DNA of 64,000 nucleotides, taken from assembly GCA_904420445.1 (NCBI GenBank), contig CAJFVJ010000003.1, positions 62,001-126,000 of the forward strand. Direction: 5' to 3'. Shown here one piece after another: positions 37,695-59,309 of this stretch (the first letter of the stretch is position 1; the number at the start of each line of letters is the position of its first letter). Made by a program: the position numbers and the translations under genes. The notes under the pieces are model-generated. The model did not search any database. It was not told the origin of the DNA and was given only the letters and a program-made list of their open reading frames with translations. The DNA comes from Candidatus Adamsella avium (lineage in GTDB: Bacteria > Cyanobacteriota > Vampirovibrionia > Gastranaerophilales > CAJFVJ01).

Positions 37695-38423
37695 TTAGTA
37701 AAGAAAATGATTTTTGGCAGTTAATATACACAATTTTTCAAGGGTATTCCTGTATTCTTTTTTTATTTCATCTGGCAGATTTGTTTTTTCATAAACTTTT
37801 CTCAGATTATTCCATTTTTTCAACTGCTTTTTGGGAGTAGCTTTCATGTGAGCAAAAATGTTCAAGCCTTCTTCAAGGCACTCTATAGATGAGTTCATAT
37901 TATCAATTTTATCAAAAGCCGAGATAGCTTGCGCATCGATTGAGGCATGTTGTATGTGCTTCAGATAAGAAATCTGCTTTTCTTCCCAGCTTACATTCTT
38001 TTTTGAGTGAGAAACTTCTTGAACAAGATGGGAAACTCTTGAACCGAATTTTTTTTCAAGCTCTTTATACGTTGTATCAGTATCTTCTACTGTATCATGC
38101 AATATGCCTGCAATAACCGTATCTTTCCCGAAACCAGCCTTTTGAAGTTTTTCTCCTACATTTATGCAGTGCGTGACATAAGGTATTTTTTTTGTCGGGT
38201 GTTTTCTATATTTTCCGTCATGTTTTTGTATTGCAAAAATTACCGCTTCTCTTGTTTCAGGGTCAGAAAAAAGAGAACGTTTTGAGGGTATGAATACATC
38301 TCTATCAGGTGATTTTAGCAAGTTGATAGTAGGAGAGGTATAACTCTTTCTTTCTTGCGTAGGTGTTATCCCTCTAAATGAGAGAAAATTATTTGCTGTG
38401 TTAATTTTGTTTATTACTGCCAT
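37695..38423 (-). CDS. Single-domain (p)ppGpp hydrolase-like HD protein (Mesh1/SAH-like) with N-terminal LSFRG tag
   Basis: AIQKHDGKYRKHPTKKIPYVTHCINVG, AGILHDTVEDTDTTYKELEKKFGSRVSHLVQEVS, SAFDKIDNM; starts MAVINKINTANNFLSFRG. The internal ATG is preferred over the ORF-track start. Confidence 0.82.
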   Translation of the reverse strand: MAVINKINTANNFLSFRGITPTQERKSYTSPTINLLKSPDRDVFIPSKRSLFSDPETREAVIFAIQKHDGKYRKHPTKKIPYVTHCINVGEKLQKAGFGKDTVIAGILHDTVEDTDTTYKELEKKFGSRVSHLVQEVSHSKKNVSWEEKQISYLKHIQHASIDAQAISAFDKIDNMNSSIECLEEGLNIFAHMKATPKKQLKKWNNLRKVYEKTNLPDEIKKEYRNTLEKLCILTAKNHFLY

Positions 38424-38518
38424 ATTCAGTGATACCTGATTTTCATGAATCTCTAAGATGATTATATAAAAAAAGAACATAAATATAAATTGATATTACT
38501 TTTTATGTTCTTTTTTTA

Positions 38519-38668
38519 GGGATTTATATAGCAAATTCCACCAAAAATTTCCAAAACAACGTCATACTGAGCTTTAGCGAAGTATCTCAATAAAAAGGAT
38601 TCTTCTGGTTAAAACCATCAGAATGGCAGACTTTTAATAGTATCTGTGAAATTTGCTATATAAATCCC
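38519..38668. mobile_element. MITE-like 150-bp repeat, copy B
   Basis: TIR GGGATTTATATAGCAAATTCCAC / GTGAAATTTGCTATATAAATCCC; inverted copy of 14821-14970, also 150 bp. Confidence 0.85.
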
Positions 38669-38739
38669 TTTATTTAAGAGTTGTAAATATTTTGCCTGCC
38701 TCTATCAAAAAATAATCTTCAAGGACTTAAACCATCTGA

Positions 38740-41700
38740 TTGGACACAAAAGAGTACTTAAGAATGATTATTGAGGCAATAAACTTAAACGGGATTTCTG
38801 CAAAAAAATCTCAGAAAAAATTTGATTCAAAAAAATCTGCTGATGCAGATTTAACAAATAATTATAATTATTTGCAAAATTCAAAACAAAAAGTTGATGC
38901 GCTATCAGCATCAAACTACTTTGATATAAATTTCAAAGGGGTAGAAGAAAACAGACGATTTCGCTCAATGAAAAAAGATTTTGCTCCAAAAACCGAGAAA
39001 ATTCTTGTATATGCTACTCGTATTGCAAAAAGGTTAAACTCTCCTGTTGTTACTCAAGATCATATGTATCTGGCGATTCTGGTTGATTTGGATAAATATA
39101 TTGATGAGTTGAACAACGGTGCAAAATATGAAGAAACTTTTTCAAATGTAGGCTCTGTTCCTGTTTTGGAAGAATACCTCGCTCAGGATTACTTCAAAGA
39201 AAAAGAAGGAAGAGCAAAAATACAACCTGTAATAAAAGATGAAATCAACAATGTCAAAAAATCTATAACACAACAAGCTCAAAATAATCCAAGAGTCAGA
39301 AGATTTGGCACTCCGCCACTGTCGCCTTCTTTGATAAATGATATTTATTTCTTAAACAAAAAACTTGATGCAACTGCTCCATCTCAATCTTCTACCTCAC
39401 TGATTGATGATTCTGTACTTCTTGCCTCTCTGATTGCTTCTGACAGCAAGTCTACCCGTTCAAAAGCGCTTTCTTTTGTGAACAGACTGCAAGAGGCTGC
39501 GATGATTGATGAAGCTCCTCAAAAAGAAAAAATACATCTGCATTTTTATGATGAAAAAGCTGATAACCTCTGGAGAAACTTTGATCTCGGACGCAATATG
39601 TTTGTTCTGTTTGATAAAGATAACGAAAACGCTCCGAAATATCTTCTTCGCAGCTTTGCAAACCTCATAAACAAACCCGGGCAAACATACAAAAATTTGA
39701 ATAAAGATAATGTTGATATAACGTTCTTCAATGATAAAGCTACTTTTGAACTCATAACAAAAAAATATGAGGATGCCAAAAAAGATAAAGATAAAAAACA
39801 TATTTTTGTTCTTGATTGGGCGACGGCAGGGGCTTCTTCATCGACATTAAGAGGAATGGAAGGACGGATATTATTTACTCTTGAAGATTTGAAACTGCTT
39901 GAAAATAAAGATAAAGAGTCAAATGTTCAGTTTTTGGTTCTCTCAAACAAAGATTTTTATTATGGAACAAATCAGAATGCTCTCATAAAAAATGCCGTAG
40001 ATGACTATGGCGAGCTATCATTGCCGATTATGAACGCAGAAGATACAAAAAAAGTGCTGATAGAAAGTCCTGAGTTTATTGATAAAGCAGTGAAGAAACA
40101 AGTTTCAGAGGATGCAATCACTTTTGCGGTTGAGTTATCTAGCGCAGATGACGGTATATATCCTGAGAAAACACTTAAGCTTCTGAAAAATGTTGCATCA
40201 TATTTCGTTGAAAAAGACGAAATAACCTCAGAAGATATTGCTACTTATATCGATGAAACAAAACATCTCTCAAAAACAACCGACTCTGATGAACCGTTCA
40301 AAGTTGTGTTTAATACAGGCAAAACGCTTGATGATATAGTAGGTTCTCCTATGACAAAAGCGGAGGCTGAGAGTATTGTCAATCAGATTAAAAACAAAAG
40401 AATCGGGACAAAAGGGATGACTTTCTTCCTCGATACCGGTTCGTCTTATGGCGGTGGAAGACGTCATACTGCCGAAGCCATAGCAGGCGAAGCTGGTATT
40501 CCTATGATAACAATTAATGCCCGTGATTTTGCGATGAAAGATATCGATGCCATGTCCCAAAATGCAGGACTCTCTGAGATAAAAATCAGAAAGATTATTA
40601 ACAGTGCAAGAACACAGGCTGAGGCAAACCCGAATAAAACAGCGATGATTTTTATCGAACACTTTGATAACTTCGCATCAAATCCGCTTTATGGAATTTC
40701 TTCAATTTATGAACAAAAGGCTTTTTCTCAGCTCTTAGAAGAGATGGAAAATATCAGAAAAAATGAAGATTTGAACATTATTGTCGTCGGATCTACAGAT
40801 ATGCCTGAACTTCTCGATGAAGACATTATGAAACCGCATAAATTTCTCGATCAGGTAATCATATATTCTCCTCGTGATGTCAAAGACAGAGAGGATATTA
40901 TAAAATATTATGCCGATAAAAATAATCTCAAAATAGCAGGTGATACCGAGGAAGAAAAAAATTCTATAATAAAATCAGCAGCCGAAACAACAAGCGGTTT
41001 TACTGTTGTTGATATTTTATATATGCTCGATAAAGCAGATATAATCGCCAAAGAACGGGGTCATGACGCTATTGATAAATCTGATTTTACGGAAGCTTTC
41101 TTGCAGACAACATCAGGCAGGGTTTCATCGGTTAAAGATTCTGCTCACAGGAAAGAACTTGTGACAAAACATGAAGGCGGTCATGCCCTGACGCTGCAGT
41201 TTATGTATGACCTCGCTAAAGAGCAGGAAAAACCATGGCATGTTCCTGATAAAGTGAACTTTATCACACTTGACCCGAGAGGCGACTACGGCGGAGCTAT
41301 GTATCATAAAAATTCAGAGAATGATGAATACAGCTTCGAAAAAGTCTTCAGTGATATAATTTGTGCCTTTGGCGGGCATTCTGCGGAGAAAACATTCTTC
41401 AATATGGACGGAAGCTGGGGAATTACAGGTGATATGCAGAGTGCAACAAATACTGCAAAAATGGCCGTTCAATATATGGGATTAGGTCCCAATACAGGGA
41501 GAATATCCATCTATCCTGCAAGAAACGGGAATCTTGATATATCAGAGAAGATGAGAGATAAAATTGACTCTGATGTTGATGTTTTCTTGAAGAATGCAAA
41601 TGCTGTTTCCGATATGATTGTCAATACTTATGATGGTTTTTTGGAAGAATTCGGACAGAAATATAAAGATAGAGTAGGAACAGGCGATTGCATAATTACT

Positions 41701-41919
41701 GCAGATGAATTCCAGAAAGAACTCTACGATTGGGTAGAAAAACAGCCTGAGTCAAAGAAAAAAGAAATAGAAAAACTAAAACAAGATGTTTTGATGGTCA
41801 TTGATAAAACCAAAAAAGGTATCGTGATTGATAAAGATACTATCAGCGAAGAAAAGAAACACTACGCTCAAAATGAACATCCTCCGGTAAAGGGCGGTCT
41901 TCCTCCCGTTGATGAATAA
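38740..41919 (+). CDS. Soluble FtsH-like (M41) metalloprotease with Clp_N-like N-terminus and degenerate AAA domains
   Basis: TKHEGGHAL protease motif and GHSAEKTFFN...ITGDMQSATNTAKM M41 region; FtsH-like AAA recognisable but lacking Walker A, Walker B acid pair and Arg fingers; N-terminal INFKG tag and no TM helix. The start at 38740 is TTG, with an alternative ATG at 38764. Confidence 0.82.
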   Translation: MDTKEYLRMIIEAINLNGISAKKSQKKFDSKKSADADLTNNYNYLQNSKQKVDALSASNYFDINFKGVEENRRFRSMKKDFAPKTEKILVYATRIAKRLNSPVVTQDHMYLAILVDLDKYIDELNNGAKYEETFSNVGSVPVLEEYLAQDYFKEKEGRAKIQPVIKDEINNVKKSITQQAQNNPRVRRFGTPPLSPSLINDIYFLNKKLDATAPSQSSTSLIDDSVLLASLIASDSKSTRSKALSFVNRLQEAAMIDEAPQKEKIHLHFYDEKADNLWRNFDLGRNMFVLFDKDNENAPKYLLRSFANLINKPGQTYKNLNKDNVDITFFNDKATFELITKKYEDAKKDKDKKHIFVLDWATAGASSSTLRGMEGRILFTLEDLKLLENKDKESNVQFLVLSNKDFYYGTNQNALIKNAVDDYGELSLPIMNAEDTKKVLIESPEFIDKAVKKQVSEDAITFAVELSSADDGIYPEKTLKLLKNVASYFVEKDEITSEDIATYIDETKHLSKTTDSDEPFKVVFNTGKTLDDIVGSPMTKAEAESIVNQIKNKRIGTKGMTFFLDTGSSYGGGRRHTAEAIAGEAGIPMITINARDFAMKDIDAMSQNAGLSEIKIRKIINSARTQAEANPNKTAMIFIEHFDNFASNPLYGISSIYEQKAFSQLLEEMENIRKNEDLNIIVVGSTDMPELLDEDIMKPHKFLDQVIIYSPRDVKDREDIIKYYADKNNLKIAGDTEEEKNSIIKSAAETTSGFTVVDILYMLDKADIIAKERGHDAIDKSDFTEAFLQTTSGRVSSVKDSAHRKELVTKHEGGHALTLQFMYDLAKEQEKPWHVPDKVNFITLDPRGDYGGAMYHKNSENDEYSFEKVFSDIICAFGGHSAEKTFFNMDGSWGITGDMQSATNTAKMAVQYMGLGPNTGRISIYPARNGNLDISEKMRDKIDSDVDVFLKNANAVSDMIVNTYDGFLEEFGQKYKDRVGTGDCIITADEFQKELYDWVEKQPESKKKEIEKLKQDVLMVIDKTKKGIVIDKDTISEEKKHYAQNEHPPVKGGLPPVDE

Positions 41920-41945
41920 AAAATATAAAAAAATATAAATTTTTG

Positions 41946-41981
41946 AAACAAACAGGCAATTTTTTATGCCTGTTTGTTTTT
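41946..41981 (+). terminator. Rho-independent terminator after the FtsH-like gene
   Basis: AAACAAACAGGCA-attttttta-TGCCTGTTTGTTTTT. Confidence 0.85.
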
Positions 41982-42023
41982 ATATAAATATAAGGGTTAT
42001 AGTGAAAGGTTAACTTCAAGGTT

Positions 42024-42410
42024 ATGAGCAACGGAGTGAAAAATACGAGGTATGCTCAGGCAATTAACGTAAATCCTATGTCGTTATATACGCCTGACAG
42101 TATATTCAGAGCAAATCTTATGACACCTGTTTACGGTGATATGTATATTCCATCACGTCCTCTTGATAATCGGACGCTTGATAAATACGAATCACCCGAC
42201 CCATCATCTCCTATGTGGACGACAAACAAACAAATAGGACTTGCTGCAGGTGTTGCATACGGTATTATCGGTGTTCTGACCAGAGGCAAGAGTATAAAGG
42301 CAACAGGCAGGTTGCTTATGAATATAGGCAATAAAATATTCGGAGGTATTAACAGGTTTAGAACTTCAATAGCGAACTATATTATAGACAATAATTATTA
42401 TAAGCGATAA
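42024..42410 (+). CDS. Unknown small protein with one hydrophobic segment
   Basis: 128 aa; hydrophobic QIGLAAGVAYGIIGVLTRG; ends IANYIIDNNYYKR. Confidence 0.65.
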   Translation: MSNGVKNTRYAQAINVNPMSLYTPDSIFRANLMTPVYGDMYIPSRPLDNRTLDKYESPDPSSPMWTTNKQIGLAAGVAYGIIGVLTRGKSIKATGRLLMNIGNKIFGGINRFRTSIANYIIDNNYYKR

Positions 42411-42453
42411 TTTTTGTCAAAAACCACAGCGGTTTTTTTATAAATAAAAAAAT

Positions 42454-42485
42454 AAAAACTGAAGAAAAGCTCTTCAGTTTTTATT
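42454..42485. terminator. Hairpin terminator between convergent genes
   Basis: AAAAACTGAAGA-aaagc-TCTTCAGTTTTTA. Confidence 0.8.
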
Positions 42486-42502
42486 TTATGAAACAGTGTT
42501 TG

Positions 42503-43963
42503 TTATTTTTCTTTTATATGCAGCTCGATAGTCATCGGATTGTGAGAAGATATTTGTTTTGCGAATGCTGTTGAGAACATATCGAGCGTTTTGGGATTAT
42601 AAGGATATAAAACTTCATCTGGTTTTACGAAAAACCAGTCTAGTTTGTATTCTTCATATCCTATCAGAGCTTTTTTCGAGTAAGTCGGAACAAATCCCTT
42701 CAGCCCTCTTTCGTTTGTTGTTCCGAGGTAATTATCATAACTTGCATTATCTCCGATAGTTCGTTCACGTTTGAATTCAAAAATTTCTTTATCATCAAAT
42801 CTGAAATCCTGAAATAAATCAAATGTGGCTTTTTCTTTGTTGTTTGCAAAAATCGGCACGCTCGGGCTTGTCGGGTCGTTTTTAACTCTTGAAGAGTTGA
42901 ATATTCCTGTTGCTGATGAGATTATGCTTCCGTTTTGTACAAATTTTGCTGATATATTCTTAATCATATTCTGTCCGTCGAAATTTTTTCTGAAAAATCT
43001 CTTCGGGTCATTAGGCGATGTATCCTGATTGTTTGTGTTGAGGTTTGCGCCGATTACGACAGGATTTGAAATGTCTTTAATTCTTGAAAGAAAGTATTGT
43101 ACCTGAATGGCTCTGTTTTTTGGTTTTGTTCTGTCTTCTGTTTCGATTGCTATCAAGGTTGTTTTTACATCGCCTGGCAGAGTTACATCAGCAAGAAGAG
43201 CTATTCTTCCGCCTATTTTTACATCCGTAGGTTCAGGTTTGACGGGAAGATTTTTCTCTTTCATTGATGCCATATCTTTTGCGTATTCTTTTTCATCATC
43301 ATACCAGTTGTAAGCATCAGGAAGTCTGATAATTCTTACATTAGACAGAGGGTATTTTGAGAGGATGGCATGACCTGAGAGTCCTCTGTATTGGGATTTG
43401 TTTATCTCTTTGTTGTATTTCCCTTCATAATCAGGCTGAACGCCGAGAGTGTAAGGGTCTGTTCCTATAAAATCCACTCCGAAGGCGTAGTTATATCCGA
43501 GAGCATGAGCGAGTTCATAGGCAACATTTTTGTATCCGCTTTCAGGTCTTCCCCAGTCAACATCCGTAAGAAATATTATATCAGGTCTTTGCAGACTTTT
43601 TATTTGAGTTTGCAGGGCGATTTTTTTCTCTCTGTCTTTCAGAATTTTTTCATCTGCGAGTGATATAACTTTATCCCCGTTCAAAAATAATGCCGATATC
43701 TGATGCAGCTGCGCACCGCCTTCGAGGTTCCAGTTTATGACCTTCATTGTATGGGGAAGAACATCTTCTGACCCAAAGGAGTTATCAACAACAGGTGTAT
43801 TCAGGATGGTGTCTATTTTATTCTGAATTTCCGGTGTTGTTGTCTTTGACTTTGACAGGCTTACATACTCGTCAAATGACAGCCTTGGCAGTGCAAACGC
43901 TGATGAGGCTGCAAGGAAGAAAATTCCTGCCGAGAGTATACCTGATAAGATTTTTTTATTCAT
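42503..43963 (-). CDS. Secreted endonuclease/exonuclease/phosphatase (EEP)-like protein
   Basis: Signal peptide; MKVINWNLEGG, RPDIIFLTDVDWG, GLSGHAILSKYPLSNVRIIRLP, NPVVIGANLNT. Confidence 0.75.
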   Translation of the reverse strand: MNKKILSGILSAGIFFLAASSAFALPRLSFDEYVSLSKSKTTTPEIQNKIDTILNTPVVDNSFGSEDVLPHTMKVINWNLEGGAQLHQISALFLNGDKVISLADEKILKDREKKIALQTQIKSLQRPDIIFLTDVDWGRPESGYKNVAYELAHALGYNYAFGVDFIGTDPYTLGVQPDYEGKYNKEINKSQYRGLSGHAILSKYPLSNVRIIRLPDAYNWYDDEKEYAKDMASMKEKNLPVKPEPTDVKIGGRIALLADVTLPGDVKTTLIAIETEDRTKPKNRAIQVQYFLSRIKDISNPVVIGANLNTNNQDTSPNDPKRFFRKNFDGQNMIKNISAKFVQNGSIISSATGIFNSSRVKNDPTSPSVPIFANNKEKATFDLFQDFRFDDKEIFEFKRERTIGDNASYDNYLGTTNERGLKGFVPTYSKKALIGYEEYKLDWFFVKPDEVLYPYNPKTLDMFSTAFAKQISSHNPMTIELHIKEK

Positions 43964-56364: not shown

Positions 56365-56700
56365 ATGGGTTATGTCGTTGCTCATGGAACTGATTTGGTC
56401 TTAAGCCAGCAGGCAGCAAATATAGAATATGAGATGATGATTATAAGTGAAGACTTACAGATGTTATCTCAAGATGCTGCTGTGCTTATGAGCGAATATA
56501 GCAGGACATCAACAAACGGTGGTACTGAAGGCGTTCAACCTGATGCTTATGCAAAATTGGCGGAAATTGAGGCCAAGGAGAAAGCCTTGCAGGCTGAGTT
56601 GAAAGTCCTTGAAACACAACATTCCGCCATTCAACAAAATATGGAAGCTACTGAAAAATTGATTGATGAGAATGTCAAGAAATCAGCAGCCTGGTCTTAG
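56365..56700 (+). CDS. Unknown small coiled-coil protein
   Basis: 111 aa; heptad-rich AEIEAKEKALQAELKVLETQHSAIQQNMEATEKL; AAGGAAAC upstream. Confidence 0.7.
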   Translation: MGYVVAHGTDLVLSQQAANIEYEMMIISEDLQMLSQDAAVLMSEYSRTSTNGGTEGVQPDAYAKLAEIEAKEKALQAELKVLETQHSAIQQNMEATEKLIDENVKKSAAWS

Positions 56701-59309
56701 GATACTGTTTTGATATCAAGCTCATCATTGTGAACATCGATTTCGATTTTACTTATGGCATTATTAGCAAGAATTTTTTTCGCCATAGGATTTTCTATAT
56801 ATTGCATTATTGTTCTCTTTAGAGGTCTTGCACCATAAGCAGGGTCATAGCCTCTTGTTGCGATGAATTCTTTTGCTTCGTCGCTGACATAGAGTTCGAT
56901 GTCTTTTTCTTCAAGACGTTCTTTAAGATGATTAAGCTGAATATCAACGATTTTTGACAAATCAGGCAGTGTCAAACCTTTGAAGAACACAATATCATCA
57001 ATACGGTTCAAAAATTCAGGTTTGAAAGTCGATTTCATGATATTCATAACTTCTTCTTTTGTCTTTTCAAAGTCAGAAGCTGAGAATAGAGAGTTCATTG
57101 TATTTTCGAGGATTAAAGAACTTCCTATGTTGCTGGTCATGATTATGACGGTATTTTTGAAATCAACTGTTCTTCCTTTTGAGTCTGTCAGACGTCCGTC
57201 ATCGAGGATTTGCAGCATAATGTTGAACACGTCCGGGTGAGCTTTTTCGATTTCATCAAAGAGAATTACGCTGTATGGTTTTCTTCTGACGTATTCTGTG
57301 AGCTGACCGCCTTCGTCATATCCGACATAACCGGGAGGCGCACCTATCAATCTTGCGACTGCGTGTTTTTCCATATATTCTGACATATCTATTCTTATCA
57401 TTGCATCTTCAGAGTTAAAGAGAAATTCTGATAAGCTTTTTGCAAGTTCTGTTTTTCCGACACCGGTAGGTCCAAGGAAGATGAATGAACCGATAGGTCT
57501 TTTCGGGTCTTTGAGTCCTGAGAAGGCTCTTCTTGTTGCATCAGAAATGGCATCAACCGCTTCATCCTGACCTATAACACGTTTGTGCAGATATTCTTCC
57601 ATATTCAGAAGTTTTTGTTTTTCGCTTTCGATAAGTTTGTTAACAGGGATACCCGTCCATTTGCTTACGATTTTTGCAATTTGTTCTTCTGAGACTTCTT
57701 CTTTCAGCATAGTGTTTTTGTCATTTCTTGCTGAGAGTTCTTCTTCGTATTGATGAAGTTGTTTCTGCAGTTCGATGAGTTTGCCGTATTTGAGTTCAGC
57801 AGCTTTCTCAAGGTCTGCGTTTCTTTCTGCAACATCGATTTCCTGTTTTACTTTTTCTATTTCTTCCTTTATTGATGCACTCTGTGTGATTGCTTCTTTT
57901 TCTTTTTTCCATTGAGCGCTCAGTTTGTCCACTTTGTTATTAAGCTCACTGATTTCTTTATCAAGCTCTCCGACTTTTTTCTTCGAGTCGTCGTCTGTTT
58001 CTTTTTTCAGGGCTTCTCTTTCGATTTCAAGCTGAGTTTTTTCTCTTACGAGCTTATCAATTTCAGCAGGCATACTGTCTATATCTATTCTCAGAGAAGA
58101 AGCTGCTTCATCAATGAGGTCGATAGCTTTATCAGGGAGAAATCTGTCGGTGATATATCTGTCAGATAATTTTACCGCTTCGATGATTGCAGAGTCTTTG
58201 ATTCTGATTCCGTGGTGTACTTCGTATTTATCCTTAAGACCACGCAGAATGCTGATGGTGTCTTCTATTGACGGTTCATTTACCATAATAGGCTGGAATC
58301 GTCTTTCAAGAGCAGGGTCTTTTTCGATATATTTTCTATATTCGTTTATGGTTGTAGCGCCTATACATTTCAGAACACCTCTTGCAAGCATAGGTTTGAG
58401 AAGGTTTCCTGCGTCCATTGAACCGTCTGATGAACCTCCGGCGCCTACTACTGTATGTAGCTCATCTATAAACATAATAATTTCGCCGTTGCTTGATTCA
58501 ACTTCTTTGAGGAGAGCTTTCAATCTTTCTTCGAATTCTCCTCTGAATTTTGCGCCTGCAATCAACGCACCTATATCTACTGATATAAGCCTTTTATGCT
58601 TCAGTGTTTCAGGAACGTCGCCTTTTACTATTCTCTGGGCAAGACCTTCGATGATAGCAGTTTTACCGACTCCAGGTTCACCTATCAGTACAGGGTTGTT
58701 TTTTGTTCTTCTGTTAAGAACCTGTATAATCCTTCTGACTTCCGTATTTCTGCCTATTACGGGGTCAAGTTTGCCTTCTCTTGCAAGTTTTGTCAAATCA
58801 ACGCTGTATTTTTCAAGAACTTTATATTTTTCCTCAGCGTCTTCAGAATCCAATTTTGCGTTGCCTCTGATGTCTTTTAAGGCGATTAAAACAGATTGGG
58901 TAGTTACATTAAGGGAGTCGAGAATTTTTGTCGTTTCTGACGATTTATCTTCGAGAATAGCAAGCAAGATATGTTCGTTTCCGATAAATGTATCACCGAA
59001 GTTTTGCGCTTGCACTGCTGCGTTGTCAAAAACACGTTTCAGAGCAGGAGAAATAAATATCTGCCCGCTGTCATAAGCATTTGCCAGCTTGGGTTTTTGA
59101 GAGAGTATTCTTTCTATATCATTTTTCAGTTGATTTTCATTTACTTTGAGTTTTTCAAATATATCTTTTACAACATTTTCATCAGACTCAAGAAATGCGA
59201 GCATAACATGCTCAGCGTCCATCTGATTGTTTTGATAACGATGCATTATCTCCTGAGAGAGAAGAATCGTATTTTGTGCAGATTTTGTGAATTTTTCAAA
59301 ATTAAACAT
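56697..59309 (-). CDS. clpB: ClpB-type AAA+ disaggregase
   Basis: Clp_N repeats, GEPGVGKT and GPTGVGKT Walker A motifs, long coiled-coil middle domain. Confidence 0.95.
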   Translation of the reverse strand: MFNFEKFTKSAQNTILLSQEIMHRYQNNQMDAEHVMLAFLESDENVVKDIFEKLKVNENQLKNDIERILSQKPKLANAYDSGQIFISPALKRVFDNAAVQAQNFGDTFIGNEHILLAILEDKSSETTKILDSLNVTTQSVLIALKDIRGNAKLDSEDAEEKYKVLEKYSVDLTKLAREGKLDPVIGRNTEVRRIIQVLNRRTKNNPVLIGEPGVGKTAIIEGLAQRIVKGDVPETLKHKRLISVDIGALIAGAKFRGEFEERLKALLKEVESSNGEIIMFIDELHTVVGAGGSSDGSMDAGNLLKPMLARGVLKCIGATTINEYRKYIEKDPALERRFQPIMVNEPSIEDTISILRGLKDKYEVHHGIRIKDSAIIEAVKLSDRYITDRFLPDKAIDLIDEAASSLRIDIDSMPAEIDKLVREKTQLEIEREALKKETDDDSKKKVGELDKEISELNNKVDKLSAQWKKEKEAITQSASIKEEIEKVKQEIDVAERNADLEKAAELKYGKLIELQKQLHQYEEELSARNDKNTMLKEEVSEEQIAKIVSKWTGIPVNKLIESEKQKLLNMEEYLHKRVIGQDEAVDAISDATRRAFSGLKDPKRPIGSFIFLGPTGVGKTELAKSLSEFLFNSEDAMIRIDMSEYMEKHAVARLIGAPPGYVGYDEGGQLTEYVRRKPYSVILFDEIEKAHPDVFNIMLQILDDGRLTDSKGRTVDFKNTVIIMTSNIGSSLILENTMNSLFSASDFEKTKEEVMNIMKSTFKPEFLNRIDDIVFFKGLTLPDLSKIVDIQLNHLKERLEEKDIELYVSDEAKEFIATRGYDPAYGARPLKRTIMQYIENPMAKKILANNAISKIEIDVHNDELDIKTVS

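Follow-up and report, generated by a model that had tools for sequence, protein, structure and literature searches.

A gene of Candidatus Adamsella avium, lying within the 64,000-nucleotide stretch of DNA that was analysed (the window), encodes a Clp-FtsH fusion protein whose sequence establishes an M41 relationship, an intact zinc site and the loss of both ATPase sites. Its modules follow one another in the order Clp_N-like domain, pseudo-D1, pseudo-FtsH-AAA and M41 protease, the fold of the front half being a predicted one. With both AAA motors lost and the protease site kept, the protein probably cuts polypeptides without ATP; this independence, which had also been proposed in a first-pass annotation made from the sequence, we infer from the residues at the former motor sites. 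The motifs quoted in that annotation were all found at their positions when the sequence was checked, while the extent of the family and the precedent of LonC had been missed.

The reading frame from 38740 to 41919 on the forward strand is open and has no interruption; its start was corrected. Because relatives begin with MIxKI, and their N-termini align with ATG 38764, this ATG is the preferred and more likely start, giving 1051 amino acids, with TTG 38740 a possible one. The features of the gene are collected in Table 1. A search of positions 38300-42600 for RNA families returned two matches far below the gathering score, which were taken as chance. Just upstream of the gene (window 38518-38669) lies a MITE-like element of about 151 bp with 24-nt terminal inverted repeats (96%), copies of which, at least 40 of them near full length and with 84% identity or more, are spread over all three contigs. 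An 870-residue ClpB-type disaggregase, assigned by its N-terminal sequence and alignment, is encoded at window 56697-59309 on the reverse strand, 15 kb from the fusion gene.

Table 1. Features of the fusion gene, in window coordinates; residue numbers in the last column, other than model residues, are counted from the TTG start.
Feature	Position	Strand	Basis or remark
Whole gene	38764..41919	+	1051 aa; Clp_N-like, pseudo-D1, pseudo-FtsH-AAA, M41 zinc protease
N-terminal linker, disordered, Asn/Ser/Lys-rich	38764..38925	+	pLDDT <50 (model residues 1-59); conservation 0.29
INFKG tag (hydrophobic-[SN]-F-x-G)	38926..38940	+	Tag-like motif in 63/71 long forms
Clp_N-like helical domain	38950..39168	+	ClpC N profile matches, hhalign, AF2, Foldseek; sequence alone weak
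Degenerate Hsp100 D1-like AAA module with AAA_lid_9-type lid (predicted)	39538..40278	+	Without Walker A or B
Degenerate FtsH-type AAA module	40306..41118	+	Pfam AAA, residue table (n=74), dN/dS, conservation
Former Walker A FFLDTGSSYGGGRRH	40423..40467	+	Residue table, 74 members; FFLDTGSSYGGGRRHT at residue 562 (40423)
Former Walker B FIEHFDNF	40651..40674	+	Residue table, 74 members; residue 638 (40651)
Former SRH/arginine finger MKPHKFLDQ	40828..40854	+	Residue table, 74 members; residue 697 (40828)
M41 metalloprotease domain	41131..41733	+	Pfam M41; PDB matches to FtsH
HEGGH zinc site	41170..41184	+	HExGH in 74/74
Third zinc ligand Asp in GITGDMQS	41431..41433	+	Asp in 74/74; GITGDMQS at residue 894

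The protease half is readily recognized by profile searches. Pfam Peptidase_M41 (PF01434) matches with E=1.6e-15 and 57.9 bits against a curated cut-off of 29.9, Pfam AAA matches above its curated cut-off with E=1.5e-13, and the NCBIfam FtsH model (TIGR01241, an equivalog) covers residues 528-970 with E=9.6e-41 at 140 bits, far below its cut-off of 600. Residue counts were taken from an alignment of 74 family members, every one of which has the HExGH motif and the third-ligand Asp; other M41 positions, namely PRG and GGxxAE, are kept in the family as well. At the former Walker A site a G-x-G-R is retained throughout, Arg stands in for the Walker A Lys in 74/74, and the Ser/Thr that should follow is Arg or Lys in 70 of them; the Walker B Glu is absent in all, with Asn, Lys or His found instead. 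Nearly all of the 74 have other residues for the sensor/SRH arginines, and the FVG pore motif of FtsH is not kept, both in places where the alignment is less certain. The lost ATPase with a retained M41 site, initially read from one protein, is thus a pattern of all 74 aligned members, and no classical P-loop, including the displaced functional one that the first-pass annotation had considered, was found at any place in these proteins. Positioning of HEGGH as an M41 active site, the other point on which that annotation had made its proposal depend, agrees with the predicted structure: in the 1051-residue numbering, helix 794-820 holds HEGGH and helix 885-904 holds the third-ligand Asp, and the C-terminal half of the full-length model finds FtsH, AFG3L2 and YME1 as structural matches. 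The protein also appears to be soluble, as proposed, with no transmembrane-like stretch (maximum 19-residue hydropathy 1.06, versus 2.92 for canonical FtsH) and none of the 70 long forms of the family exceeding a hydropathy of 1.6.

The front half resembles ClpC, ClpB and Hsp104 by predicted fold and weakly by sequence. When its profile was compared with PDB sequences, the best matches, though weak, were to the N domains and D1 lids of ClpC, and among 29 members searched against Pfam the commonest matches were Clp_N (6/29, best E 0.005) and AAA_lid_9 (5/29). Alignment by hhalign to the ClpC and ClpB proteins of the same genome (N repeats) gave E values of 0.002-0.03, with 0.15 for a reversed control, and aligned the same two places as the PDB profile search. 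AlphaFold2 modelled the N-terminal half alone with pLDDT 90.5 and pTM 0.87, and all 50 of the best listed PDB matches of this model by Foldseek were ClpC, ClpA, ClpB or Hsp104, with E down to 8e-11. A further degenerate AAA-like segment had been noted at the outset, and its presence was upheld; its identity, which had been missed, is that of a predicted Hsp100/ClpC-type D1 fold with its lid. Where the Walker motifs of D1 should stand, the family alignment shows neither a P-loop nor an acidic DE pair. For the full-length protein the model has pLDDT 81 and a pTM of only 0.50, and therefore lends no support to a particular domain arrangement or to ring formation.

The fusion is one of only two M41 genes in its genome (2.1 Mb, 3 contigs), the second being the canonical membrane FtsH of 608 residues whose existence the first-pass annotation had asked after. 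Among 85,462 species genomes scanned there were 130 relatives, of which 80 were fetched as further loci; the titles of the relatives are nearly all Candidatus Gastranaerophilales, Cyanobacteria (the former phylum placement of the order) or gut MAGs. The long form is present in 25 of 98 related genomes and, in searches with profiles through the class and the phylum, was confined to families f1 and f2 of Gastranaerophilales, an order of gut bacteria, in one copy per genome. Elsewhere in the class the whole-family profile detected FtsH-sized proteins only, and the N-half profile had no match outside Gastranaerophilales in 293 genomes of the phylum. The N-terminal half is always joined to the protease half, with the sole exception of one genome in which the gene is cut by contig ends. 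No conserved gene partner or neighbour was found across the family, and a 128-residue open reading frame downstream is shared with the nearest species only. Two loci titled Clostridiaceae or Clostridia (L063 and L093) carry the family, L063 falling inside the Gastranaerophilales clade; these are probably mislabelled MAGs, with transfer as the alternative. A phage or plasmid origin was rejected, as no relative was found in viral contigs and the phage and plasmid matches involved the C-terminal half only, at 25-28% identity and of an ordinary FtsH-like kind.

The gene is under strong purifying selection. Identity to the Adamsella protein is only 33-50% for most members, and comparison with the nearest species (94% identity) gave a dN/dS of 0.087 overall, with 0.035 for the pseudo-AAA, 0.09 for the M41 domain and 0.125 for the N-terminal half. 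Since these values are low in all modules, every module is evidently kept for a function. Across the family, conservation peaks in the pseudo-AAA core (mean majority fraction 0.69, with 0.62 for M41), as would fit a structural role, and a dead motor so strictly kept is doing something. Decay of a single gene, or an assembly error, is ruled out by the many independent genomes together with the dN/dS of 0.09.

Phylogeny of the architecture, a check that had been suggested for it, was carried out on the AAA-M41 part. All 22 dead-motor rows formed one clade and the 21 canonical FtsH rows a separate one, each with support 100/100. Between them fell soluble, tagged AAA-M41 paralogues of 600-900 residues from other Gastranaerophilales (L028-L038), most with intact Walker motifs and some half-degenerate; they make up a further group of soluble FtsH-like proteases, likewise undescribed. 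These paralogues belong to the same bacterial order as the fusion and share its N-terminal xFxG tag, with a retained M41 site and, in those tested, no transmembrane helix, but most differ from it in keeping an intact P-loop and Walker B. Three of them from family f4 (L031, L033 and L034) keep the P-loop, have Asp for the Walker B Glu and show no recognisable SRH motif, and are intermediate. Together this suggests that the motor was lost stepwise from a soluble paralogue. In the tree the three join the dead-motor clade at 94/88, a placement given no weight, as it involves long branches.

The N-terminal tag of the fusion recurs on unrelated proteins. It consists of a hydrophobic residue and [SN]F-x-G, preceded by a short segment rich in Asn and Ser, and the protein often begins in the form M-x-I-x-x-[IV]. 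Over 800 kb of the genome, residues 8-70 of open reading frames show an 8-fold enrichment of it (21/44,516 positions versus 8/134,087), a figure somewhat flattered because the motif class was drawn up after examples had been seen. Proteins that carry it include starch synthase-like, DHH, HD hydrolase, AAA and M41 proteins and weak PARP matches, and in one lipoprotein-like reading frame the tag precedes the signal peptide; examples in G000:C3 are C3:49848, 306891, 407482, 441009, 511207, 515660 and 796299. A 261-residue HD-domain protein, similar to the hydrolase part of RelA/SpoT and encoded divergently from the fusion gene at window 37695-38480 on the reverse strand, is also tagged (NNFLSFRG).

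With FtsH and the m-AAA and i-AAA proteases the fusion shares the C-terminal AAA-M41 order, sequence similarity at E of about 1e-30 to 1e-41, the fold and the zinc ligands; unlike them it has no transmembrane helix, Walker A Lys, Walker B Glu or FVG pore motif, its arginine fingers are mostly gone, and its Clp-like front half adds about 450 residues. The N domain and D1 of the Hsp100 proteins ClpC, ClpA and ClpB match that front half (in predicted fold, and weakly by profile), whereas in the fusion D1 is without Walker motifs, there is no Clp-type D2 and no ClpP, and the front half is attached instead to an FtsH-type AAA and M41 protease. Plant FtsHi proteins are likewise degenerate FtsH relatives kept by selection, but with HEXXH lost or altered (PMC8197885, PMC9020784), the reverse of the fusion with its lost ATPase and retained protease site; the contrast with FtsHi had been correctly drawn in the first-pass annotation (PMC8197885). 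LonC, although unrelated, is by analogy the nearest functional precedent: it is hexameric and joins an AAA-like domain without ATPase to a live protease, and MtaLonC, which has no ATPase activity, degrades unfolded proteins (PMC3391209). An ATPase-dead AAA-like domain joined to a protease is thus common to LonC and to the fusion, in the latter as known from sequence. LonC differs in its Lon-type (S16) proteolytic domain, which Pfam did not detect in the fusion, finding an M41 domain instead, and in having no Clp-like front half. The open-licence full-text literature searched contained no account of an M41 family with a dead ATPase and a live protease, nor of a Clp-FtsH fusion.

The fusion is probably a soluble, ATP-independent, oligomeric M41 zinc protease for unfolded or delivered substrates, built of ClpC-like and FtsH-like units in which both AAA modules are dead. 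As FtsH proteolysis requires oligomers (PMC9020784) and LonC digests without ATP, we infer a ring-shaped protease whose pseudo-AAA entrance is fixed. In such an assembly the two pseudo-AAA layers would serve as scaffold and as a gate that does not move, recruitment of substrates or adaptors would fall to the Clp_N-like domain, possibly also to the N-terminal tag, and the M41 site would cut polypeptides that enter without forced unfolding, in the manner of LonC. The genome's canonical FtsH and its ClpB and ClpC homologues would remain responsible for energy-driven proteolysis. Counted against this explanation are the conserved G-x-G-R and pseudo-AAA core, which could reflect retained nucleotide binding.

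The main rival follows from this last point, because LonC binds nucleotide: the pseudo-AAA modules may bind ATP or another nucleotide without hydrolysis, with binding switching the protease on or off. The Walker A Lys contacts phosphates, and its replacement by Arg in 74/74, together with Arg or Lys for the next Ser/Thr in 70/74 and the absence of a D1 P-loop, makes such a switch rather unlikely, even with G-x-G-R invariant in 74/74 and the pseudo-AAA core the most constrained part of the protein. Nucleotide binding has been demonstrated for LonC only, the ATPase-dead MtaLonC holding six nucleotides per hexamer (PMC3391209). More doubtful still is a hetero-complex in which an active AAA partner (canonical FtsH, ClpB or ClpC) supplies the unfolding force. 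Canonical FtsH and homologues of ClpB and ClpC are found in the same genome, and plant FtsH12 and FtsHi do form mixed complexes (PMC9020784); among the chloroplast FtsHi proteins FtsH12 may supply the force. However, a partner here would be membrane-bound or differently built, the genome itself has no second soluble M41 protein, and neither a conserved gene neighbour nor anything else in the genome context points to one. A last reading takes the protein for a scaffold or holdase without proteolytic activity, its zinc site being a relic or of structural use only, as might be supposed from the loss of all energy-using parts and the greater conservation of the pseudo-AAA than of M41. This is very improbable when the catalytic Glu and three ligands are invariant in 74/74 members, most of them only 33-50% identical, and PRG and GGxxAE are kept besides.

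In summary, an ATP-independent M41 protease of this kind would, as far as has been searched, be the first case of an M41 family that, in many species, has dispensed with its motor while retaining the protease, and Clp-like and FtsH-like units are naturally fused in it. Tentatively, it may even represent a new class, an energy-independent compartmental zinc protease in which a stacked pseudo-ring of ClpC-type D1 and FtsH-type AAA gates an M41 chamber and is directed to substrates or to a site by the xFxG tag, which would be specific to the lineage and common to many unrelated Gastranaerophilales proteins. With intact, half-degenerate and fully dead relatives in a single order, loss of the motor can be traced step by step, and the family offers a natural test of what an AAA ring does for an M41 protease beyond ATP-driven pulling, whether as scaffold, gate or allosteric switch.
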